A stretch of 64,000 nucleotides of DNA from contig JANBPK010000722.1 of the NCBI GenBank assembly GCA_027579435.1, positions 30,634 to 94,633 on the forward strand. Direction: 5' to 3'. Made by a program: the position numbers and the translations under genes. Source of the DNA: Candolleomyces eurysporus. Taxonomy: Eukaryota; Basidiomycota; Agaricomycetes; Agaricales; Psathyrellaceae. This document shows positions 39,897 to 53,805 of this stretch, in pieces (positions within the stretch are counted from its first letter, which is position 1; each line of letters begins with the position of its first letter). The notes under the pieces were generated by a model. That model searched no databases and was not told where the DNA came from. It worked only from the letters and a program-made list of their open reading frames with translations.

Positions 39897-40458
39897 TGTT
39901 GAACAGCCATGTTCGCAGAAGAGGGAGATCCTGTTGAACTCGCCATTGCAAGTGCAAGGGAACAACCTGCGCAGAAACGTAGCCCTAGAATACTGAGTAT
40001 GATCTGACATCATACCTTGCTTGTGGCTTGATGGAGGTGAGAGGGGTTGTTGATGCTGAGTGTGCTATAAGCGTGTGTAGAAGAGTACTTGATAGTACGA
40101 GTTGTTCTGTAGAAACTAGCTACTACAAGATGGCTATTTATACGTTTCTACTATGTGACAGTCACGTCACGGTAAGTCACTCAACTGGTCTGTGCGCCAG
40201 TTGGCTGACTGAGCATTGCGTGCTTAGCACGTCATGCTGACTGAGCCTATGACGTAGTACAATAGGCTACTGACTAAGGATGACGTAGTATGATGTACAT
40301 GAAACATGATATCTACGTATGTCGAACTTCTGGCCAAGTCCAGACCTATCTAATAATAGACTACTACGTGTAACTACGTGTCCATACGTGTACTATGTCA
40401 CGTGATAGGTAAGTGATTAGGCGCTGGATAAGACGCCCATTTCACGTAAAGTTCAACA
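39897..40458 (-). mobile_element. Copia element 1, 3' LTR
   Basis: 562 bp with ends TGTTGAAC...GTTCAACA, near-identical to 48154-48715 (about a dozen mismatches by eye). On the minus strand it is preceded by a purine tract GCATGGGGGAG (40459-40469) directly after pol, which marks it as the 3' LTR. The left flank ctttg does not match the right flank catct of the 5' LTR, so no target duplication is visible. Confidence 0.88.
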
Positions 40459-40502: not shown

Positions 40503-43500
40503 TTAGTGAAATACTAGTCCTAGCGACTTGCGGAATAATTCGAACTTTACTCTGCCTAAGGGCTTGGTAAAGATATCCGCGGGGTTGTCATCTGTGGGAA
40601 TATAGAACAAAGAGACATCTTCGTTCTCGACGTACTGCCTGATCAAGTGGTAGCGAACATCTATATGTTTTGTTCGGTGTTCTTGAACCGGATTGGAGGC
40701 ATTAAAAATGGCTCCTTGGTTATCCACATAGATCGGCACTGGAACCTGCATAGGAATGCCAAGTTCCTTCAGAAGAATCCTTAGCCAAATGACTTGCTTT
40801 GCGCAGTCAGATAGAGCCATATACTCTGCTTCCGTTGAGGAGGTGGCGATGGATTTCTGAGTGTACGATTTCCAAGAGACAGCACCAGATGCAAGAAGGA
40901 CTAGGTTGCCCGTCTGCGAGAGCCTGTGCGTAGGATCTTGGGCATAGTCTGAATCGGTATATGACTCAAGACCTTGACCAAGGCCTTTGCGCCCCTCGAA
41001 TACTAGAGAGTACTTCCGAGTACCTACTAAGTATTTCATAATATATAGAGCTTTTGATAGGTGCTCTTCGGTAGGGTTAGCGCAATGCTGTGCCATTTTG
41101 GTTACAGCGTAGGCAATGTCAGGTCGAGTCCCCAGCATCAAGTAGAGCAGGGATCCAATTACAGACTGATATTTGCGGGTGAGAACCGCATTGTTAGGAC
41201 CTTCATATTTCGCGGGATAATATCCCTCGACCATGGGAGTCCGAGCTGGTTTGGCATTGGCCATGCCGAAGCGTTCCAGGACCTTTTCCAAGTACTTGGT
41301 TTGATCAAGCTTGATCGTATTACCATCGTACTGGATAGTCATGCTGAGAAATTCGGTAGGCGTTCCGAGATCTCTGCATTCCCATACTCGCATGAATTCC
41401 TTTTTCTTTTGGTCAGCTAGGACCTTTAGACCAAAGAAGATGATATCGTCGACATAAGCGACCATAATAACCACTCCTTCTTGGTCACGGTATATGAAGA
41501 TACCGGAATCCGAATGCAGCCTTTTAAAGCCCAGTTTGCGTACGGATTTCTCAAGTTCAAGCCACCACGCACGGGCTGCTTGCTTGAGGCCATATATGGC
41601 ACGGTGGAGGCGGTAGACCTTCCGCTCCTGGCCTTTGGCAACAAAGCCTTCAGGTTGATCCATATAGATTTCTTCGTCTAGCTTACCGTAGAGGAAGGCA
41701 GTCTTCACATCTACGGCGGTCATATACCACCCGAATAGGGCTGCTAGAGCGAAGACGAAGCGGACGCTTTCATAGCGAACTACTGGGGAAAATAGTGCTT
41801 CGAAATCTATTCCCTCGACTTGAGAGAAACCTTTGGCTACAAATCGGGCGCGTTTGCGACCATCCGATTTGATATCATAGACCCATCTGCCTTTGATGGT
41901 CTTCCGATTCTTCGGGAGTTCGACGAGTTCAAAGACTTGGCGGCTTTTGAGAGCATCAATCTCATCGGCCATTGCCTGTCTCCATTCTCTTTGTTCCGAT
42001 TCAGGTAATCGGAGAATGTCTCGAAAGGTCCATTCTTTTGGACTTTTAATATTGGTAGGAAGTCTCTCAATTTCCACGTAGGGAACTGCCTGGGCTAGCA
42101 GATGATTGAGAAAATCTACTCCCCCATCCTGACACAGTTCGGCAAGAGTTGCACGCTCTTTGCCCTTCTGTTTTATCCCTTTTAGCAGCTCTTCAACCAC
42201 TTCTTCATCAGTAGTTGCATTGTCATCAGTGGTTGCATCGCTAGTCGCAGTGGAGTATCCTCCACTGGCGTTCTGCCGCTGCCTCTTTACTCGCTTAGTC
42301 TGTGACGCCGGAGGAGGCACACTTTCCTTAATAGGGCCCTTGCGGGCAGCAGAACTGGGGCCGGGATCCCCTTTTGTAATCGTCTGCGAGCGAGGAGGCG
42401 ACTTCCGAGTCGGCAGCTCCCCTATAGCTCTCCTAAAGGACTTCTCTCCAGCTATCTCACGGAGTATTTCCGTGGGTGCTTTCGTTTCACCATAGACATT
42501 GCCTGAACGAGTAGGGATTTTTACCTGACGCCCTGAGCGTGTTCTACGCTCCCCCTGACGAGGTTCCTCGGCGGGTCGTCTAGGTGGCTCATCGTCGTCG
42601 GACTCATTCCCGTCGGAAAGAGGAGACAAGGCTCTTTGTGGATGGGACGAGAAACTTCTGTGCTTTGTGCGCATCTGAAGTTCTTCCTCAGAGAATTCTG
42701 ATTGCTCGTCTTTAGGTTCTCGATCGTTCCTCGGTAGATGGACCGAGGTATACCGCGGAAGTGTAAAACCCTTGGCTTTAGGGAACAATGCTTCATCAAA
42801 CATTGCCTTAGTGCCTATATGTACCGAGTTATTGCTACAACGCATAAACTGGTACCCCTTGACCCCTTTCGGGAATCCAAGGAATATCATGGGAACCGCT
42901 TTAGGAGACAACTTGTTCCTTCGCGTCTCTGGACTCATCCAGACCCATGCTAGGCATCCGAACACCCGTAAGTTCGAAATGTCAGGGACTTCGCCAGTAA
43001 GCAGTTCCGTCGGCGTCAGCCAATTAAGGCGGCGAACTGGAGTACGGTTGTATACGTACACTGCATGCTGCACAGAGAACTCCCACCAGGAATCTGGAAT
43101 AGAAGCGTAGTGGCGCATAGCCTCCGCTTTATCCATAATAGTCCTGTTCAAACGTTCCCCTCGGCCGTTTTGCTGCGGCGTTCTCGGCGCTGAGGCCATC
43201 ACCTCTATGCCTAGCTCCCCCAGGAGTTTGGCAAAGGCGAGAGACTTATACTCTCCACCGAAGTCGGACATAACCGATTTAATCTTCGTGGAGTACTGCG
43301 TTTGGACCCAGGTACTAAAAGTCCTGAAGGCCTTCAAGGCCTCGTCTTTTGTCCTAAGACAGACGATCCAGCAGTGAGAAGTATAGTCATCGAGAAATGA
43401 TACGAAGTACCTATACTTGTGGTACGACTGTATCGGAAACTGTTTGAGATCTGTATGAATCCTATTGAAGGCGGCTTTTGCACGCGTGCCAGAACTCGGG

Positions 43501-43917
43501 AATGATGCACTAGGCATCTTACCCTCGGCACACCCGGAGCAAACTCCGGTGTTTTTAGGAATTCGGAGATCCTTGGGAAAGTTCTTGGTATGGCGGGTAG
43601 CCTGTTTAAGAACATCAATAGAAGGGTGCCCGAAACGCTGGTGCCAGGTTTCGTAACTTGCCGCGTAAACGACAGTGTGGGCATTGAATGATTCGACCGG
43701 ATCCTCGCGGGTCGGTCTAGTCCAATAGACGGTCTGCCCTTCAGACGCGGGGCGAGCCTCTAGGCTCATGCGTCCGGCGCTGTCCTTCAAAGTAATCCTC
43801 TCAGAGTTACCCTGAATGGAATGACCGTCCTGGAGAAATGATCCCAGAGATAGCAACTTCTCTTTGAAGCGCGGGACATAAAAGACGGGATAGAGACGGG
43901 CGACATGCTTCTATCTC
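40503..43917 (-). CDS. Copia element 1 Pol: integrase, reverse transcriptase, RNase H
   Basis: More than 1117 residues in one frame. In order: GAG-pre-integrase zinc region (YETWHQRFGHPS, CSGCAEGK); integrase with IHTDLK, MSDFGGEY and QQNGRGERLN, giving D, D and E; chromatin-side Pro/Ser/Arg-rich linker; RT (KGRWVYDIKSDG, ARFVAKGFSQ, VDVKTAFLYGKL, AIYGLKQAARAWW) with catalytic VAYVDDIIFFG; RNase H (SYTDSDYAQDPTHRLS, SSTEAEYMALS, HIDVRYHLIRQ, DDNPADIFTKPL). The order IN-RT-RH is diagnostic of Copia. All catalytic motifs look intact. The frame is shifted relative to the upstream gag-protease ORF near 43905-43925, so Pol is probably not expressed from this copy as sequenced. Confidence 0.93.
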
Positions 43918-44998
43918 CGATTCGGAGTGCAAGGAAAGCTGTTCCGCGGCCGACTATGTCTACATTTGTAGACGCCGTTGTTACCCTTTTATCTGAGACA
44001 GATTCGTAATCAACGAGATCTTGCCTGCAGTTAGTAAAATGACGACTCGCTCCAGAGTCCAAGATCCATCCTCGATTCTGATTCTTACTAACAATCACAC
44101 TCTGGTCTGACCGAAGGCAAAGATGTTCTAATTCAGCACTTTGACAGGCGAAAAATACATCTTGACTACTACTACGGGAAGCGACACTTAAGTCAGCATT
44201 GCCTATAGGAGCCTTCGTTAGCGACCTGTGAGGTGAGTTAGTAGAATGAATAACGTACCCGCAACCTTCACCATCCAGACACTCGGAACAGTTCTCTCGA
44301 TGACGATGAATTTCTTCAGACGTCATCTTCGTATTCCACGTGTCCCACGACTCGACCCACTTATTCGGTTTGGCTAAATAAAGCCAATGATAGCCTCTGC
44401 GGCAATCATACCGCGGCTTGTCACCGTAGTGGATCTCAAACCCGAACTGACCCTCCACCCAGCAGTACTCTTTCGGGATGATTACATCATCCTTCGGAGC
44501 AAAGTCCTGCCGGGGCACCACGTCGATAGTCCCCGAGGGGAAACTTCTAAGGGCATTACCCTTGTGGTGCGGACTCTTGCGGAATTCCGCAAGGGAGTCC
44601 TGGACGGACACCCAGTCTCGCCAAGGCTCGAAGTTCCAGGTCGTGGAACCCTTGTGTTTGCCAGCAACCCATCGCTGCGGCAAGACAAGGCGGCCTTGCT
44701 CGTCCCGTTCCTTGGGGATCGACTGATCGATCAACCCAAGCTCTCGGCGGGCAGCGAGCTCACTCCTCAACTCCTCTTCTTCGAAGTCGTCTTCAAACGA
44801 TCTCGGCTTGAAACGTTCTGCCGAGATTTCGTTAGCGATGTGAGTATAGTTATGACAATCGCCAATGTCAAACTCACTGGTCTGCGGAGCCTCACAGTCA
44901 GGCGAAGGAGATCTTGATCTCTTGCGACTGTTGGGCTGCGACCCGATCGAGACGAAATCGGAGTCCTCTGCCTCGGTTATCTCCATTATCTCCGTCAT
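43787..44998 (-). CDS. Copia element 1 Gag C-terminal extension and protease
   Basis: This is in the same frame as gag but separated from it by one TGA at 45011-45013. It contains a nuclear-signal-like RKRSRSPSP, an uncharacterised domain (KEYCWVEGQFGFEIHYGDKP, GYHWLYLAKPNKW) shared with element 2, a cysteine cluster (HRHRENCSECLDGEGCGYVI ending in H) and the Copia protease motif WILDSGASRHFTNC with catalytic DSG intact. The frame then shifts before the pre-integrase region. Protease would process Gag and Gag-Pol. Confidence 0.82.
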   Translation of the reverse strand: MTEIMEITEAEDSDFVSIGSQPNSRKRSRSPSPDCEAPQTSEFDIGDCHNYTHIANEISAERFKPRSFEDDFEEEELRSELAARRELGLIDQSIPKERDEQGRLVLPQRWVAGKHKGSTTWNFEPWRDWVSVQDSLAEFRKSPHHKGNALRSFPSGTIDVVPRQDFAPKDDVIIPKEYCWVEGQFGFEIHYGDKPRYDCRRGYHWLYLAKPNKWVESWDTWNTKMTSEEIHRHRENCSECLDGEGCGYVIHSTNSPHRSLTKAPIGNADLSVASRSSSQDVFFACQSAELEHLCLRSDQSVIVSKNQNRGWILDSGASRHFTNCRQDLVDYESVSDKRVTTASTNVDIVGRGTAFLALRIGDRSMSPVSIPSFMSRASKRSCYLWDHFSRTVIPFRVTLRGLL

Positions 44999-45010: not shown

Positions 45011-46813
45011 TCAGGACGGAGCCATCTCCAAGTCCTTGTCCTTTTGAAGGACATCCGGGTCCTGACGGACACAGGAATCTATCTCCAGCTTCTTCATAGT
45101 CTGGGTGGTCTTACGAACACCTAGACGAGAAGCTTCTCTGCGTGATGCCTCAACTGCAGAGTAGATGGACGGAGGAGTGGGCCTCTTCTGAACCGGCACC
45201 TCCCGCTCAACACGAGATACAGCGCCACTCCCAGTGATGAGAGTGACAGTATGGAGTATCTTTTTGGGAGCAGGAGGGGTAGGAAGAGGGCGAGGAGGAC
45301 GAGTGGGAGGAGGAGTGTATTTAGAGCGTGGGTGAACCTTGTGGTCCGGGGTAAAGAAGTCGATAGGGACAGATCCTCCAGGTCCCTTTTTGCTCCCGAG
45401 GGTAATCCCGGGAAAGGGAGCATCACCCCATCTACCGCCCGTGATCGAGAACTTTGTTACTTTCCCATCCTTCTTTCGTTGGATGGGGGTATCCGTAGCT
45501 CTACTGATTTCTTCCATCAATTCGGGCATCGTATATGGCTCCCGAAGTTGGTTGGAAGATGGGAGTGGAACCTTGCGGTTACCACGGGCAGTCATACGGC
45601 CGTTGGTTCGAGGAACCAGCGGCTTGGTAGAGGGGGCCGGAGGATAGGAATGGATGGCGACATTAGTCTGCGACATCCCAAGAGAATGTTCCGGAAGCAC
45701 ATCGAATGATGAGTCGGATGATGAGGAAGGTGATGGGGAATAGCGATCGGCGGATTTGGAGGTGCTGGGCCCAGCTTGGTCTGGAATTTCTTCCAGGCGG
45801 GCCATAGAGGCGGCCAGGCTCTGCGACGCTTGGTCAGCAAGAGCGGTGGCGGCGAAGAGGCGGTCATCATCTCCGAACTCGTAATCCGAGTCGGAGTCCG
45901 AGACGTCCGCGGCGTGGGCACGGGCCTTGCCCTTGGCTTTGGCGGACTTGCCGCCCTTGCCATTTCCTCGCCCACCGCGTTGACGATGTTTCTTCCCCTG
46001 CTGCTGCTGCTGCGGAATAAACTCCGCGCGCTGCTGAGGGGGCGCAGAAGGGTGACGACCCTTCTGCTGCGAATGAAACTGGGGAGACCCCTTCTTATGC
46101 TTCACCGCAGAAATGCGGTTGGCAAGGGGTTTAACAGCAGGACGCTGCTTTCTCTCCCACTCGGTGACCAGATACCCTTTGGTATCTTCCAGCTTGAGCT
46201 GGTCCTGGTTAATATCCTGGACCAAAAGAGGCATGATGGTACGGTAGAATTCTGGAAGCTTCATAACAAGAAGCATCGACAGAACTTCGTCGTCGAAGTT
46301 GATCCCGGCCTTTGACAACTTGGAGACCAAGTCATCAAAAAGGCCCAGCTCCTTATGGGGATTTGAGGTCCCCGGGAGCTGGAATCTCATGAGTTGCATG
46401 AACCATGAGAACTTTTGGGACGACGACGTCTTCCCGTACTTCTCCTTGAAGATGGACCAAGTGGTCGCTGCATTGTCCTCGTCAACGTGGATGTGCAACG
46501 ACTCCTTGATGCGGAGCTTGAGAGCTCCAATCGCGGAATCATTATCCGCGATCCACTTCATCCTCTGCTCAATACGGAGCTTCTTGGCCTCGGCGGAGTA
46601 TCTTACCGCCGGAACGGCCTCGATCCCAGCATCCGAGTCGGCGGCAATTGCCTGGGTGTCCTTGAGCTCATCCAGGAGCTCAGACTGTCCACTGACAATC
46701 TGCCACAACGACTGGAACTGGAGGTAAGAGCGCATAGCACTCGCCCAGCGGGTATAGTTGGAGCCGTCAAAGACGGGAACGACGGAGAGGTTGTTGGCGG
46801 CGGTGGAAGACAT
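45011..46813 (-). CDS. Copia element 1 Gag (UBN2 type)
   Basis: 600 residues. The N-terminal UBN2 capsid region shows FDGSNYTRWASAMRSYLQF, AIGALKLRIKESLHIHV, FSWFMQLMRFQLP and LLVMKLPEFYRTIMP; then comes a Gln/Lys/Gly-rich basic stretch (RQRGGRGNGKGG, AKAKGKARAH) and an acidic DSDSDYEFGDDD segment. There is no CCHC knuckle, so the basic stretch may bind RNA instead. The ATG at 46813 is immediately preceded by a splice-acceptor-like CTTTATTTATAG. The ORF ends at a TGA; element 2 reads through at the same place. Confidence 0.88.
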   Translation of the reverse strand: MSSTAANNLSVVPVFDGSNYTRWASAMRSYLQFQSLWQIVSGQSELLDELKDTQAIAADSDAGIEAVPAVRYSAEAKKLRIEQRMKWIADNDSAIGALKLRIKESLHIHVDEDNAATTWSIFKEKYGKTSSSQKFSWFMQLMRFQLPGTSNPHKELGLFDDLVSKLSKAGINFDDEVLSMLLVMKLPEFYRTIMPLLVQDINQDQLKLEDTKGYLVTEWERKQRPAVKPLANRISAVKHKKGSPQFHSQQKGRHPSAPPQQRAEFIPQQQQQGKKHRQRGGRGNGKGGKSAKAKGKARAHAADVSDSDSDYEFGDDDRLFAATALADQASQSLAASMARLEEIPDQAGPSTSKSADRYSPSPSSSSDSSFDVLPEHSLGMSQTNVAIHSYPPAPSTKPLVPRTNGRMTARGNRKVPLPSSNQLREPYTMPELMEEISRATDTPIQRKKDGKVTKFSITGGRWGDAPFPGITLGSKKGPGGSVPIDFFTPDHKVHPRSKYTPPPTRPPRPLPTPPAPKKILHTVTLITGSGAVSRVEREVPVQKRPTPPSIYSAVEASRREASRLGVRKTTQTMKKLEIDSCVRQDPDVLQKDKDLEMAPS

Positions 46814-46845
46814 CTATAAATAAAGCCTTCATCAGTAAAGGCTCT
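46814..46845 (-). promoter_or_regulatory. Predicted branch point and 3' splice site before gag, element 1
   Basis: Minus-strand TTTACTGATGAAGG is followed by CTTTATTTATAG and then gag ATG. CTGAT fits the fungal CTRAY branch consensus about 18 nt before the AG. Element 2 has the same arrangement at 50939. Confidence 0.58.
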
Positions 46846-46898
46846 GCGACCAATCGAATAATTTAAAAAGAAAAATAAATTATTGAATGGGCGACCCA

Positions 46899-48270
46899 TT
46901 ACTGCTTTCCGCGCCTAGCCTCTTCCCGACATGGTCGGCGGCGTGGAGAACTGTTCTGTAAATTCAGCAACAGTACTATGCCATCGACCAGATCTCTGTT
47001 GGGATTAGGCGGAGACGGTCGTGGGGTACCCGGGTAGTCCGGAGGTGGACTAGACCCGACCACGGTTGTCGCCTCCGAAGGGGGTTGATTCTCCTTATCG
47101 GAGTCGGATTCTATCGAATGAGGATCTTCTGGGATGACACGCTCATCCGTCGAAGATCCAGCCGCGGCGATCTCAGGGTCTGGGCCAATGTCACGTCCAT
47201 CCGAGGACTGTGCACCCTGAGGGCCATCTTGAACGGCCAGTCTCTGCACTGCACGCGCGGCCAAAGCCTGCCGCACGGCAACCGTAAGAGACTCACTCGA
47301 CCCAGGCTGACCTGGAGGGACGTAGCCGTCGGGACGGCGTCTCCAGATATGTGCAGCCTGCACTGGTTGGGGGNTGTCGGGGTGTCAATAGTGTGGTAAA
47401 GGGGTTACGGGAGTTAGGATGCAGGTTCCCGCGAACAGCGGCTTCCTGCCTACTTTGATCCAGATCTGCTTGAGAAAGGATCGTAGTTTCGGACCTCCTT
47501 AACGGTGGACCAACTCGTGAAGCCGTAACCGGGGCAGCGGATCCGCGCCTCCGGCCTCTACCACTGGCACCACCGGTTTCTACCCTATAAGGGTATCTCC
47601 CCGGCGTTCCTCGACTGGGCGCATTCGCAGCTAAATGCGAGTGGTGGCCCAGCGACGGGTTCTGCAACTCGCGGCGGTGGTCCTCACAATTAGGATCGGC
47701 GCAGAAGTTGCAAGCCTGTCTTTGAGGTCGGTAACCAGCATCAACCGCAAAGCGATTTACAAAATCGCTGAGTCTGCCAATGGTACGTTCCATGTTACTG
47801 AAACGTTCCTCCATATGGCGAGCTCGGGCCTCCGACCTAAGTCGGGCGGCTTCGAAATCTCGCCTCCGGTTGTCAGACTCCCAGAACTGTCGACCGACAG
47901 ATTCTGGCATGCGGAATCTATGTCCGAGGGATCCAAACAGTGCTCGGGAGCGCTGATTGACCCAATCAATCCCTTGTGCGAGGACGCTCTCCTCCCTTCC
48001 GGGGGGCGCGTTCCTCCACAAGCGATCTAGGGCGACGTGCATCGTAAATGTGATCGTCAGCCAGACAAACCACGTAGTCAGCGTCCACTGTGAAGAGGGC
48101 GACTGCGGGTTGTACTCGGCCACGTCCAGTACGATGCCGCCGGGGCTCATAACTGTTGAACAGCCATGTTCGCAGAAGAGGGAGATCCTGTCGTACTCGC
48201 CATTGCAAGTACACGGGAACAACCTGCGCAGAAACGTAGCCCTAGAATACTGAGTATGATCTGACATCAT
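46899..48270 (-). CDS. ORF0 of Copia element 1: cysteine-rich membrane protein upstream of gag
   Basis: Starts at tandem ATGs at 48270 inside the 5' LTR, reads through the LTR end and primer site (encoding CSTVMSPGG), and ends at 46899. Visible parts: N-terminal CxC...CxxxC (Cys 20, 22, 33, 37), a membrane-like segment at residues about 62-80 (WTLTTWFVWLTITFTMHVA), a probable coiled coil at 135-175, CNFCADPNCEDH (CX2CX4CX2H, 187-198), a basic Gly/Arg region and an acidic SDSDKENQ tail. A frame break at the N at 47374, beside poly-G, splits it into 48270-47293 and 47363-46899 and is probably a homopolymer error. The homologue at 51090-52220 is one open frame. Function unknown. It is the first AUG after the LTR TATA box. 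Confidence 0.72.
48141..48153 (-). other. Primer-binding site of Copia element 1
   Basis: Directly after the LTR the minus strand reads GTTATGAGCCCCG, complementary to the anticodon arm of initiator tRNA-Met (GGGCTCATAAC). Copia-class elements are known to prime from a 5' half of this tRNA. The identical 13 bases follow the LTR of element 2 (52127-52139). Confidence 0.74.
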
Positions 48271-48275
48271 ACCTT
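48271..48275 (-). promoter_or_regulatory. Predicted 5' splice donor in the LTR, element 1
   Basis: Minus-strand CAAG|GTATGATG: the donor-like GTATGA overlaps the first ORF0 ATG. Joining it to the acceptor at 46814 would remove 1459 nt, including the primer site and all of ORF0, and place gag ATG on a short LTR leader. Confidence 0.52.
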
Positions 48276-48391
48276 GCTTGGTGCTTTGATGGAGGGAGAG
48301 GGGTTGTTGATGCTGAGTGTGCTGTAAGCGTGTGTAGAAGAGTACTTGGTAGTACGAGTTGTTCTGTAGAAACTAGCTACTACAAGAGGGC

Positions 48392-48399
48392 TATTTATA
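48392..48399 (-). promoter_or_regulatory. TATA box of Copia element 1 LTR
   Basis: TATAAATA on the minus strand within the 5' LTR. The same sequence occurs in the 3' LTR. It is positioned to start RNA roughly 90 bases before ORF0. Confidence 0.55.
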
Positions 48400-48715
48400 C
48401 GTTTCTACTATGTGACAGTCACGTCACAATAAGTCACACAACTGGTCTGTGCGCCAGTTGGCTGACTGAGCATTGCGTGCTTAGCACGTCATGCTGACTG
48501 AGCCTATGACGTAGTACAATAGGCTACTGACTAAGGATGACGTAGTATGATGTACATGAAACATGATATCTACGTATGTCGAACTTCTGGCCAAGTCCAG
48601 ACCTATCTAATAATAGACTACTACGTGTAACTACGTGTCCATACGTGTACTATGTCACGTGATAGGTAAGTGATTAGGCGCTGGATAAGACGCCCATTTC
48701 ACGTAAAGTTCAACA

Positions 48716-50938
48716 CATCTTGCTTTCGGGAAGCCATAACCAGTAATACCCCTTTCGGGGTTCCGATATCGGCCTCTTACCGTAATCAAGATATAGACCC
48801 GTGTTTCGGTACACGGCCACATACTCTTCGGGCTTAATAAAGCCGCCTTCTGGTTGCATGTCGACATTATCGACAATTTCTCCATAGGAATCCGGGCAAA
48901 ACCGAATGGTTTTCTCCTTATGGAATCCCTTTTTATGGTCGTCCCAGAAGTTGTTGAGTTGGCCGGTGATCCAAAAGGATCTTTTCCACACGGTCTCAAT
49001 GATCTTGTTAGTCTCCATATCTTCCTTGTACCACACCTTCCCGGGTACAACGTTAGTTTCGTCATATCCAGTGCCCAACTTTTCCACGAGGAATGGACTA
49101 TCCACAAATGGCATAGTTCGGAATTCCTCGTAGGTGAGTTCAGGCATGGCGGCAGGGCCGTGGGTCCCTAATCTGGGCTTCTCTGTGCGACCAAAGTCAG
49201 CGACGATAGAAGGGTCCAGATCATCGGACTTACTATTCGGTTTTTCAGAGTCTTGCGAAAGAGATCTTGATCTCTTGCGACTTCCTGGCACCGAACAAAT
49301 GGAGACTGCATCTTCATCTTCGTCTTCCGTAAACAGGACCTCATCCCTTGCTTCTATTTCCTGCATCTCGACCATAGCGACTTCATCAGTTGGAGCCATT
49401 TGCTCCTCAGAATCGAAGTTTGCTCTTTCGAGCGTCTTCATTGTCTCGGTGGTTTTAACCACCTCGAGGGATTCTGCGACCTTGCGGGATTTCTCCACGC
49501 ATGGGTAGACTGATGGGGGTGTTTCCTTTTGTTGGACCGGCGAATTTTCGGCGATAGTCCTGGAAATGGCCCCTCTACCGCTAATAAGAGTAACGGTAGA
49601 TTTTGCCTTGGGAGGCGGGCGAGGATCGGTTGACTTTTTGGAGTTTCCTCCGCGAAGCCGAGGGAGTCCGATCGTATAGTTCGGGGTATATCCCGAACCG
49701 GAAGCAATAGGAGCCTTGGGAATCTTCGAAAATGAAGTCCCAAGGTCGTCAGTCACTCCTGGGATAACCCGAGGAGGAGACGTAAGAGGAGGAAAGGCGA
49801 AGTGGGAGCGGAAATCGGGGGNTGTGAACGGCGTCATAATGCGCCTGAGAGCGAGCCGGATCATACTCAAGAGAGTTGATCGGCGGTTGGACTTCGAATG
49901 GGAGTGCGAAAGGGTTATTCTGATAAGAACTCCCCTTGGAGGTAGTCTTCTTGCCGATGGGAATAGCCATTTGGGCAAGGTTTTTCTGGATGCGTTTGAA
50001 GTTGAGCTCCTCCGGCGACAATTTGTCAGCGACAGAGGAGGTGGTGGTGGCAGGCTGAATGCGATCAGCGAGGGAAAGGGATGCGAAAAGGTTGTCCGCA
50101 TTAGGAGCGTCCGACTCAGAGTCGGAACCAGTGTCGGCAGCGTTGGCCTTGGCCTTGCCTTTGCCCTTTCCTTTCTTGGAACGGCCGGCACGCTGTCGCT
50201 TCTCCTTCTTCTGTTGTTGCTGCTGCTGCGGTTGATCCGCGCGCTGCTTGGAAGAGGAGGCAGTTGGCTGCGTAGCCTTCTGCTGCTGGTGGAAAAGGGA
50301 GCGTTCCCCTTCCGCTGGACAGCGGAGATGCGATTAGCCAGGGCTTTCTTGCCCGGCTTCTGCTTTCTTTCCCACTCCGTAAGCATATAGGACTTGACTT
50401 TTTCGACGGTCAATTCCTTTTTGTTGATATCGGCCACCATAAGTGGCACGATGTTGGAATAAACTGGCGGCATGGTAGCAACCAGCTGCATAGCCAGCAT
50501 CTTCTCCGGGATTTCCACGGAGGCGGCCTTCAACTTACTAACCAACAGGTCCCAGTGTGCGAATTCCTTCTGCGGACTCTGGGAGCCTGGGATGGAGAAC
50601 CTGTACCACTCGCAGAACCAAGAATAGATCTGCGAGTCCGAGGTTTCTCCAAAGGCGGTTTTCAGATCGGCCCAAATCTTAGGAGCGTCCGATTTCATAT
50701 GGACGCTTCTAAAATCCTCCCGGATTTTGAGAAGGATTAGGCCTTTGGCCGAATCCGATTTCTCGGTCCAAGCTTCCAACTTTTCACCGTCGGAAGGTTT
50801 GGAGATTTTTCCATCAACGATCTGCCACATGCTCTTACTAAGGAGATATAACTCCATAATCTGAGCCCACCGGGTATAGTTGGATCCGTCGAGAGTGGGA
50901 ACGGCGTTGTAGGCGGCGTCGGTCTTGGAGTGCGACAT
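48716..50938 (-). CDS. Copia element 2 Gag and extension, truncated by element 1
   Basis: UBN2-type start (LDGSNYTRWAQIMELYLLS, GLILLKIREDF, WFCEWYRFSIPGSQSPQKEF, LVATMPPVYSNIVPLMV), then a middle part that in the annotated frame is Ser/Pro/Arg-rich nonsense. In another frame (about 50300-49822) it reads QQQKATQPTASSSKQ, KKGKGKGKAKANAAD and DSESD, matching element 1. Two compensating frame changes therefore exist, the second at an N in poly-G (49822). The distal part has RKRSRSLSQDSE and the uncharacterised domain (KPEEYVAVYRNTGLYLDYGK, GYYWLWLPES). It is cut by element 1's LTR at 48716, before the protease. Confidence 0.8.
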
Positions 50939-50962
50939 CTAAAGAAAAAGATGTCAGCGAAC
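50939..50962 (-). promoter_or_regulatory. Predicted branch point and 3' splice site before gag, element 2
   Basis: Minus-strand TTCGCTGACATC is followed by TTTTTCTTTAG directly before gag ATG: a CTGAC branch site, a pyrimidine tract and an AG, all close to fungal consensus. Confidence 0.62.
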
Positions 50963-51089
50963 TTGTACAAATTTTCCATGATAATAACACATGGAAGCAA
51001 AGAATGAGCCGCCACAAGCTTTACCCGTACCTCCGGTCGTAGTTACCATGTTGCCATGTTACCAAACGAACCGGAGGGATCTCTACGAT

Positions 51090-52220
51090 CTAAAGCTTCC
51101 GAGATGGATCGTTTGATCCATCAAGGGTCCTGTCAGGTGCCTGCAATGATTGGTTTTCTTTGTCCGAATCGGACTGAGGGGGTTGAGATCCTTCAGGTGC
51201 AGATGGAGGAGTTTGGTTCCCAGGGATTGTCCTGGGAGTGTCAACTCTTCTTCTCTGCGGGATGACGTATCCCTCCGGAGGAGAAGGAGTCCTTCTCATT
51301 CCGGAGCCTGTTGAGAAATGGCGAGCAAGTGCTTGACCAATATTCTCAGGAGGCATTCCTTCCCAACGATTGTTTATGGAAGGAGGCCCTGGATCTCGGG
51401 AAATAGCTTCTTGATCGACATCAATGGGGTTATGGCTGGTACCAGGCGCCCTGAGTCGTTCTTCACGAGTGCCTCCAAAATAGGATCTGGGGCGGTTGTG
51501 AGCAGAAGCTTCCTGCTGACGTGATCCTCTGTTAAGGAGTCCATTACCTCGCCCACGTCCGGACCGGACGGGTGGATTATACGGAACTCCTCTAACCGAG
51601 TTAGCTGCGTTATCACGATCTGATGGATCTTGATTCGCTCGCACAGTCCGTCTACGAGTAGACGTCCGTCGTGGTAACGGATTCCTCGGCGTAGAATTGT
51701 GATTCTGCCTCGGATTCTCATTACTCGACGATAGCAGGTCTCTAATACTAGCCACTGTTGCGACATTCCTTCGAACTTCCTGACACAGCGTACGGATTTG
51801 GTTTCCCAATCGGCGTATGTCAGTACTGTTACGCGTAACCTGATTAGGGTACATGCGTCCGAGGATATCGCTAGGGTAGTATTGGTTCCCCAGAAAAAAC
51901 GGCATCCGAAAGGCTTCGACTGGATGAAAATTCCAGGATGCCTGATACCGATTTATCCAATCAATCGCATTATTCATTACGTCCACTCGGAAATTGAATG
52001 GAGCGTATCGAATAAGCCGATCCGCTGCCACATGTAGTGACATTGTCAGCGACATCCACACTACCCACGTAGTCAGCGTCCAACCCGAGGGTGGAGCGAC
52101 AGGGTTGTAATGCGGAGCGACAAGCGCGGGGCTCATAACTGTTAGACAGCATTTCTCGCATGGTAATGCGAGTCCAGCAGTGCCACAGCTACAAGTAGGG
52201 AGAGTATGTTGTTGAGACAT
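51090..52220 (-). CDS. ORF0 of Copia element 2: cysteine-rich membrane protein
   Basis: 376 residues in one open frame. It starts in the LTR (52220) and crosses the LTR end and primer site (CCLTVMSPA). N-terminal CSC...CEKCC (Cys 10, 12, 21, 24, 25), a membrane-like segment at about 47-65 (WTLTTWVVWMSLTMSLHVAA), then IDWINRYQ, FRMPFFLGNQYYPSD, a helical segment at 130-165, a long basic Arg/Asn/Pro region and a tail with SDSDKENQ. It aligns with element 1 ORF0 most strongly in the membrane segment (WTLTTW, HVA-DRL) and the following RMP motif. The CX2CX4CX2H motif of element 1 is absent. Function unknown; a membrane-targeting or regulatory role for the particle is only a guess. Confidence 0.74.
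   Translation of the reverse strand: MSQQHTLPTCSCGTAGLALPCEKCCLTVMSPALVAPHYNPVAPPSGWTLTTWVVWMSLTMSLHVAADRLIRYAPFNFRVDVMNNAIDWINRYQASWNFHPVEAFRMPFFLGNQYYPSDILGRMYPNQVTRNSTDIRRLGNQIRTLCQEVRRNVATVASIRDLLSSSNENPRQNHNSTPRNPLPRRTSTRRRTVRANQDPSDRDNAANSVRGVPYNPPVRSGRGRGNGLLNRGSRQQEASAHNRPRSYFGGTREERLRAPGTSHNPIDVDQEAISRDPGPPSINNRWEGMPPENIGQALARHFSTGSGMRRTPSPPEGYVIPQRRRVDTPRTIPGNQTPPSAPEGSQPPQSDSDKENQSLQAPDRTLDGSNDPSRKL
52127..52139 (-). other. Primer-binding site of Copia element 2
   Basis: GTTATGAGCCCCG on the minus strand, identical to element 1, directly after the LTR end. It lies within ORF0 and within the predicted intron. Confidence 0.72.
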
Positions 52221-52569
52221 ACCGTTATACAGGGATCGACTATAGAGTGATGCTTGAGGGATGTACTACTGACTTTGCTTAATAGAAAGTGCTTCGAGCT
52301 TTTATTCGTACTAAACTACATGGTTTATATACTACTCGAATATGTGACCGTAACGTCACACAAAGTCACCTAGTGGTCTGTGCACATTGGATGACTGAGC
52401 ATTGCGTGCTTAAGGTGTAATAATAACACCATTATGACGCTTTGCTCTAGAAGCTGAACCTAGAATACTACTAGACCTACTATATACCGAGTTTACTACG
52501 TAATACTATTTATAGAGGTTTATGTAATAAGCGCCATGGAACAGGCGTCTATTTCACATAAGTTCAACA
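52140..52569 (-). mobile_element. Copia element 2, 5' LTR
   Basis: 430 bp with ends TGTTAGAC...GTTCAACA. It carries a TATATAAA box (52324-52331, minus) about 104 bases before the ORF0 ATG and a GTATGT donor-like site at 52222-52217. It shares blocks with the element 1 LTR (CTGAGCATTGCGTGCTTA, a GTCACA-rich stretch) but is clearly diverged. Its outer end lies inside a Gypsy-type LTR. No matching 3' LTR is present in the window. Confidence 0.82.
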
Positions 52570-53805
52570 CCAACTAACACCTAACACCAACTCCAAGTCA
52601 AGCCGTGCAAGGTAAGTATAATGTATAAACCTTTTGTAGTCGTGCTGCACCAAAATCGGGGGNTGCGAGTATGGGGGGGTAGTGTAGAGTATTAAGAATT
52701 TACAAGTTCTCTCTCTTGTGCACACTAATTCCACGTAATCAAGGAGTACTCGATAATCACACAGTTAACCCTAAGGTTACTTCTNTATAGCTTTATCTTT
52801 CCTTTAACTTAGTATCACGCCGCGTGAGATAAAAGTCACAAATCCAGTCAATTGCAAACACAAAAGTAAAACACAAATAAAACAGCAGTAATTCTCTGGG
52901 AAACACTATGCTAAGAGAGTCCAATATATATACTATCTGGAGCCGCACAATCACCGGAGCATGGTAAATAGGTGTACACGAGATTTATAAATAAAGAGAG
53001 TCCAGGCCCCAGCTAGAGAGAGAGATAAAGAGATAAAAAGAGGGTATTGGATACGCCACTCCTGCGCTTGTGCTGTGACTATTAATACATTCTTGTTGCC
53101 TTTTCTAGTATGCCGAGCGGAATGCTGAAGCTGATCGAGGGTGGTCAGTCTACGGTTATTCCAACTGCCGCCTTGGTGAGCCTTTGCTCGAGCCGCATGA
53201 GGAGGAGTCGGACCTCTGTCAATTGAATAGGTTTATCTTGGCAAGTCCCTTGTGACCGCCCTCCGGGTTATCTCTTTCTGTGAACGACTTTCCTTTCAGA
53301 GTACTTTTGAGCTCCTTTTTTGTGCCGCGCCAGCCATCATGCCTCTGATGTGCCAAAACCTCACCACACATCTCTTTGTATGCTTAGGGACTTGCCCTAC
53401 TGCTCTAGCACTGAATATACTCAATTAATGTGAGGCCGCGCAAGAGGATTGGTACCTTTAGTGCCTGGGAAACCACCTCTATTGCTTTAGTAGTGAAATT
53501 GAGCCTTTCAACTGCAGGGTAGGCCGTTTGATCTGAAGCGGCGCCAACCGGCTAGCTTACTAAACCCTCATCTCAGGTATATGGCGGGCGCGCCTCTAAG
53601 TTGGCAGTCCTCGAGCAGACTCCAACTCTCGTGAACCCAAGAGTAATGTACTCTTTAATTATTCTTCGCGCCACGCGAGTTATCTTAGTACTGGAAGGGT
53701 TTCGTAACATAAAGATTTAATAGACACAACCGTTTAATTGAACGATGAACAATATATTCAATAAAATTGGTATTTATTCGCGAAAAAGCGAACACGGTTG
53801 TATCA
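52570..53805 (-). mobile_element. Gypsy-type LTR, truncated by Copia element 2
   Basis: On the minus strand it starts TGATACAACCGTG at 53805 and shows patchy similarity along its length to the LTR at 19533-20800, including the shared GCCGCGTGAGAT and GGCGCGCCTCT words. About 35-40 bases at its 3' end are missing where the Copia LTR begins. It is preceded on the minus strand by a purine tract (TTTGGGGGAGA, 53806-53816), so it is the 3' LTR of an element whose body should lie to the right. Confidence 0.62.

Follow-up and report, generated by a model that had tools for sequence, protein, structure and literature searches.

A predicted intron from the long terminal repeat to the gag start codon in two Copia families of Candolleomyces eurysporus

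How the RNA of one retroelement is divided between its uses as genome and as message is a long-standing question. It is raised here by two Copia elements, of families A and B, which lie on the minus strand of a 64,000-nucleotide (nt) stretch of the Candolleomyces eurysporus genome. That stretch, the window, is part of contig C1000, and the genome that we searched for further copies was the 65.9-Mb assembly. In both elements an additional open reading frame (ORF), which we call ORF0, begins inside the 5' long terminal repeat (LTR) and precedes gag; its start codon is embedded in a donor-like splice sequence, and the gag ATG directly follows an acceptor-like one. We consider it probable, judging from the DNA, that these sites bound a single facultative spliceosomal intron, which would run from the interior of the 5' LTR to the base before the gag ATG and would split the fates of the element's RNA.

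According to this model, unspliced RNA would have an AUG-poor leader in which the ORF0 AUG, inside the donor, would be the first usable one in most copies, and by keeping a half-tRNA primer site it would serve both as ORF0 mRNA and as the template for reverse transcription. Spliced RNA would shed ORF0, the primer site and 17–33 AUGs (counted over 26 copies, those in which the predicted intron is full-length), and the gag ATG would gain an A at position -3; such RNA would be a dedicated Gag-Pol mRNA that could not be primed. One splicing decision would set both RNA fate and protein output, and splicing would have to be partial for the element to replicate.

Predicted splice signals and their conservation

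All element features given below lie on the minus strand. The donor-like sequences are GTATGA in family A (48267..48272, reading AAG/GTATGA) and GTATGT in family B (52217..52222, reading ACG/GTATGT), each with the ORF0 start codon within it. Directly 5' of the gag ATG, both families have a CTGAY motif, a pyrimidine tract and TAG. The branch-like motifs, read from the sequence, are CTGAT at 46831..46835 in A and CTGAC at 50953..50957 in B, and the acceptor AG occupies 46814..46815 in A (CTGATGAAGGCTTTATTTATAG, adjoining the gag ATG at 46813) and 50939..50940 in B (CTGACATCTTTTTCTTTAG, adjoining the gag ATG at 50938). The predicted introns, 46814..48272 (1459 nt) and 50939..52222 (1284 nt), contain the primer site and the whole of ORF0. 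We confirmed on the minus strand the donors, acceptors and lengths that the original prediction, an earlier reading of this DNA, had given, and its description of these introns as far longer than those of the host also stands: four clear host introns, re-derived from actin-family genes, measured 62–75 nt (further introns in the same output were left out, their alignments being doubtful), and one of them has the donor GTATGT. In full-length A and B copies the predicted intron measures 1280–1460 nt, outside the host range; in its GT-AG ends, branch motif, pyrimidine tract and conservation among relatives it has the features of a spliceosomal intron. The placing of the first AUG after the LTR TATA box within the donor holds strictly for A, where a TATA-like box (48393..48399) lies 127 nt 5' of the donor, the start site being a predicted one. 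It holds less strictly for B, in which another ATG stands ~10 nt past the start of the TATA sequence (52321) and is probably upstream of the start site.

The signals at gag were also examined with a composite acceptor test, which demanded YAG/ATG, CTRAY with its A 10–24 nt upstream, and pyrimidines at no fewer than 6 of 9 positions. Of the 2150 ATGs on both strands of the window, only the two gag starts passed, and the remaining fetched segments gave 27 passes among 5050 ATGs, every one a gag start; this is more than chance would be expected to give, although the passing copies are related and so not independent draws.

Among genomic copies, the donor GT was present in all 27 with the site in view, the acceptor AG in 31 of 32 and the branch motif CTGAY in 31 of 32. 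The sole failing copy for acceptor and branch alike was C1226, which has GG and CTGAA and short gag and ORF0 frames. These counts include C1116, which has an N before the AG and was scored as AG-bearing, and C990:86498+, which entered both the donor and the acceptor counts. C1095, with ATC at the gag start, fell outside the ATG scan and keeps the AG. Two listed B-like copies, C143 and C1185, were left out, as was a 33rd gag copy, C121 (family B), whose gag begins only at about codon 8, fused to another repeat, with loss of gag start, acceptor, ORF0 and LTR. The copies group as A, as B with diverged subfamilies, as C696 and as C243, the last with no donor in view. By blastn, A and B did not align over the leader and the 3' end of the intron, and the signals are kept there nonetheless; the pyrimidine tract differs among copies in its length and its share of T and C and is pyrimidine-rich throughout. 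In C. aberdarensis, protein P0006 carries the extension KPFADEGFLFQ ahead of the gag Met, an N-terminus that, judged from the protein, would reflect a gene model translated through a conserved branch motif and acceptor.

We rejected C990:86498+ as an ORF0-deleted copy (predicted intron of 376 nt): in it the LTR runs straight into the 3' part of ORF0, with no primer site in between. It was treated as a chimera or nested insertion, and no deletion claim is built on it.

ORF0, the primer site and the predicted junction

Starting at the ATG in the donor, ORF0 runs through the last 39 (A) or 27 (B) codons of the LTR and reads across the primer site as V-M-S-P. In the window copy of B, ORF0 (51090..52220) is intact at 376 amino acids (aa). 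In the window copy of A (ORF0 region 46899..48270) the frame is interrupted close to an N at about 47377, leaving 325 aa, and in other A copies it is whole (456 aa in four, 444 aa in one). Single Ns right before C runs occur at 52665, 49823 and 47377 and are probably assembly artefacts; the last of these coincides with the frame change in the A copy. Full-length ORF0s have 444–456 codons in A and 374–376 in B, and 14 of the 27 donor-bearing copies are open for at least 370 codons, as is C696 (388 aa) from a nearer donor.

We compared rates of nonsynonymous and synonymous substitution (dN/dS, by NG86) among ORF0s of at least 370 aa with at most 8 Ns (14 sequences) and among gag pieces of at least 190 codons (23 sequences), using pairs with dS of 0.03–3. 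Median dN/dS for ORF0 was 0.22 within A (10 pairs), 0.37 within B (35 pairs) and 0.42 between families (34 pairs, near saturation); for the first 200 gag codons the medians were 0.10 (15 pairs), 0.13 (105 pairs) and 0.29 (28 pairs), respectively. Relative to the window B copy, and with decayed copies included, ORF0 substitutions numbered 895, 565 and 1184 at codon positions 1, 2 and 3. These values indicate that ORF0 is under purifying selection, weaker than that on gag. Common to 10 aligned ORF0s from three families are T-C and C-x(2,3)-C cysteines, TVMSP (at the primer site), a WTLTTW-like helix, FRM, and SDSDKEN. The last of these, near the C-terminus, was invariant in 10 of 10; it resembles a KEN-box degron, which we take as a candidate only. 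The predicted structure of ORF0 was poor (mean predicted local distance difference test score, pLDDT, 42) except for a helix at 49–72 (pLDDT about 70).

No ORF0 relative came out of a search of ~5.8 billion proteins, in which 5390 and 7990 candidates were scored, or of searches of Pfam, PDB sequences and GTDB prokaryote contigs. The protein collection search also failed to return the window's own ORF0, so that ORF0 seems to lie outside the annotated proteins and the missing relatives there are weak evidence. A gag search of viral contigs led nowhere. Within the genome, we obtained 95 ORF0 matches, many of them LTR-only stretches of ~30 codons, with context checked for part of the set.

A distant Copia family of the same genome, 25–28% identical in gag, served as a control, for which four of seven gag matches were fetched (C467, C977 and C538 were left out). 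The acceptor was missing in all four fetched copies, which have CCCACAATG or CTCACAATG at gag instead. In the two whose leader is in view, C112 and C569, the same primer site is present but ORF0 is not, and the contigs of the four copies contain none of the 95 ORF0 matches. From primer site to gag, the leader of this family measures ~450–490 nt (L069, L074) and is apparently AUG-free except for the ATG in the primer site.

The primer-binding sites lie directly 3' of the LTR in both families: GTTATGAGCCCCG at 48141..48153 in A, which is complementary over 13 nt to the anticodon arm of a host tRNA-Met, and GTTATGAGCCCCGCGC at 52124..52139 in B, which is complementary over 16 nt to the same tRNA. 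ARAGORN called tRNA-Met at three of four pattern matches (three were scanned). From sequence features we take this tRNA-Met to be the initiator, and the arrangement is presumably that of copia-style half-tRNA priming.

Joining of the predicted exons would place an A at -3 of the gag ATG, this exon base being A in 27 of 27 copies, with variation at -2 and -1 (ACG in 14, AAG in 7, ATG in 5 and ACA in 1); ahead of the unspliced gag ATG, position -3 is T in 25 of 27. In the five copies with ATG at exon -3, that ATG would come into frame with gag after joining and add one Met. C377 has an extra ATG at -81 that could lie on either side of the start site. Gag-pol would remain whole in the predicted spliced RNA, unlike the Gag-only products of copia and BARE, and it forms a single frame of 2024–2102 aa in three copies, so that the model gives no account of how much Gag is made relative to Pol. 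In summary, the anatomy, and with it a predicted junction that fuses the leader to the gag ATG and omits primer site and ORF0, has good support from conservation across several diverged lineages; the occurrence and partial nature of splicing, the identity of the packaged RNA and whatever ORF0 may do are inferred.

We also looked for a spliced, reverse-transcribed copy in the genome. Two junction patterns, at 0 or 1 mismatch, had no match, and the pattern totals resembled those of a reversed control (36 vs 38 and 28 vs 25); such a copy was rejected on these grounds. C121 was likewise rejected as a spliced copy, since its gag, which starts at about codon 8, is fused to a repeat resembling the one 5' of the window B LTR.

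Alternative readings of the leader

Several points weigh against the facultative intron. Splicing is predicted here from DNA sequence, and the predicted intron exceeds the host introns seen about 20-fold in length. Because the copies are related by descent, the counts overstate independence: there are at most four lineages (A, B, C696 and C243), with the donor in view in three. Conservation of the ATG within the donor is confounded with its use as the ORF0 start codon. In the five copies with ATG at exon -3, that ATG would precede the ORF0 AUG out of frame in unspliced RNA, which speaks against strict use of the first AUG. C121 keeps gag from about codon 8 without acceptor, ORF0 or LTR. That no spliced copy was found in the genome is expected under the model, yet it is no positive proof.

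An alternative that we consider unlikely, though it survives best, is that splicing is near-constitutive, with a leader intron that boosts Gag-Pol, a small unspliced pool that serves as genome only, and ORF0 as an inessential passenger. The strong B donor GTATGT, found also in a host intron, favors this alternative, as do the 12 of 27 donor-bearing copies without a full-length ORF0. Against a passenger role, ORF0 is constrained within and between families, if less so than gag, and its invariant motifs are shared by three families.

We give a still smaller chance to a single unspliced RNA in which ORF0 is the first cistron, gag is reached by internal entry, reinitiation or an internal promoter, and the acceptor-like stretch is a U-rich element of the leader. 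U-rich elements can assist internal entry, and both the reliance on DNA for the prediction of splicing and the length of the intron for this host favor this reading. However, the 17–33 AUGs between leader and gag make plain scanning to gag implausible, and reinitiation past 376–456 codons is inefficient. Nor would a single unspliced RNA give an evident reason why GT precedes the ORF0 ATG, at -2/-1, in all 27 copies. The exact YAG/ATG with a branch motif at a set distance, found at gag ATGs only, also counts against this reading.

It is very improbable that an inefficiently spliced segment mainly triggers host small-RNA silencing, as in Cryptococcus: inefficiently spliced introns of DNA transposons do feed silencing in a basidiomycete, according to the accessible text of PMC7175516, and the intron is unusually long, but the constraint on ORF0, the primer site in the intron and the exact junction at the gag ATG would all go unexplained. 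Silencing may be a side effect of the facultative intron rather than a rival to it.

A more specific version of the facultative intron is a two-way RNA switch, in which retention would yield the genome together with a dedicated orphan protein, ORF0, and removal would yield an unprimable Gag-Pol mRNA; ORF0 might then act in trafficking of particles or RNA, or in control of intron retention. The features invoked for it are the LTR-coded, cysteine-rich start of ORF0, its candidate membrane helix and the invariant SDSDKEN. We hold this version tentatively, at somewhat short of an even chance.

The elements in the window and their relation to known systems

The family A element is bounded by a 5' LTR at 48154..48715 and a 3' LTR at 39897..40458, a pair of 562 bp with TG...CA ends (TGTTGAAC...GTTCAACA) and 97.5% identity; the LTR end is supported by 27 of 36 genome matches that stop at query position 297–303. 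Its gag (Retrotran_gag_2) is a 600-aa ORF at 45011..46813, and the remainder of gag-pol (40503..44998) is in two frames in this copy, 44998–43787 and 43856–40503, with integrase before reverse transcriptase. Pfam searches placed PF14223 in the gag of A and B and, in one frame of A, rve at 129–227 followed by RVT_2 at 640–876, which is the order of the Copia superfamily. The family B element has a 5' LTR at 52140..52569, its start set by the TGTTGAAC end, and gag with part of pol at 48710..50938, which break off at the A 5' LTR; within the window we found no second B LTR. We found no target-site duplication at the window copy of A, where the flanks AGATG and CAAAG differ, and this copy is possibly rearranged. 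Such flanks, together with the absence of the second half of B from the window (48154–52569, 39897), suggest rearrangement rather than simple nesting.

Some further observations concern the copies themselves. The segment 52570–53000, 5' of the B LTR, recurs (by eye) at C121, where it is joined to B gag, and may be the repeat of another element. In C696 (L067 938–1267), a foreign insert of ~340 bp that has an antisense zinc-knuckle-like ORF is flanked on each side by a copy of ~130 bp of the LTR 3' end. The gag frame stops after 22 codons in C1226, C4:2522-, C990:81070+ and C370, of which three are related B copies, two of them nearly identical, and one is an A copy, perhaps through C-to-T decay.

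Parts of this arrangement have precedents. The plant element Ogre, like A and B, combines an extra ORF, which lies ahead of gag, with splicing in one element; it is of Gypsy type and splices between ORFs, whereas the splice in A and B is predicted to run from LTR to gag. Ogre splicing is cited in PMC3735527. Foamy viruses, like A and B, have a donor inside the 5' LTR, so that spliced RNAs would lose what comes after it. Their primer site is downstream of the LTR donor and their Gag is made from unspliced RNA. The foamy donor is the major one and lies upstream of the poly(A) signal (PMC3694450), and spliced RNAs give rise to Pol and Env (PMC7828637), whereas in A and B Gag-Pol would be the spliced product. 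Within the Copia superfamily, splicing parts protein output from genomic RNA in copia (Drosophila), BARE1 (barley) and EVD (Arabidopsis). It has been demonstrated for copia and BARE1, as the original prediction had said of Drosophila copia, and gives Gag-only RNA there (PMC3735527) and in EVD (PMC8892269); BARE also keeps its translated and copied RNA pools apart (PMC3735527). In those elements, splicing cuts gag/pol sequence and the leader is not an intron, whereas the predicted intron of A and B precedes gag, holds ORF0 and the primer site, and leaves gag-pol whole.

Accessory ORFs ahead of gag are likewise on record. In the Drosophila MDG1 group, sORF1 and sORF2, of ~70–110 aa, lie upstream of gag, with long-read RNA that gave no splicing, and a hydrophobic helix is, as in A and B, a candidate membrane segment (PMC11952523). 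These are Gypsy-type elements with small ORFs; the ORF0 of A and B, at 376–456 aa and with a cysteine-rich N-terminus, falls outside the sORF2/FAST-like class (63–107 aa, one transmembrane segment). Rice Retrosat2 and FRetro3 resemble A and B in having a large ORF0 before gag-pol without known relatives; neither splicing nor LTR overlap of ORF0 is mentioned in the accessible text (PMC3485330). Plant accessory ORFs are reviewed in PMC7264820, and the accessible text of a paper on mushroom Copia elements (PMC10817607) does not mention an intron in the element. The novelty that the original prediction claimed is thus limited to the combination, since an LTR donor (PMC3694450), Copia splicing (PMC3735527, PMC8892269) and ORFs before gag (PMC11952523, PMC3485330) were already known. 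For the combination we found no record: in a search of titles and abstract starts, which took in few subscription papers, none of the matches listed had a donor at the start of ORF0, with primer site and ORF0 in one intron that ends at the gag ATG.

If the model is true, the answer that these elements propose to the division of one RNA between genome and message would be written in their DNA, with the primer site and a competing ORF placed in an intron whose loss yields the Gag-Pol message. ORF0 would add an uncharacterised protein family to Copia elements, and splice donors in the LTR, known in foamy viruses, would also be used by Copia elements of fungi.

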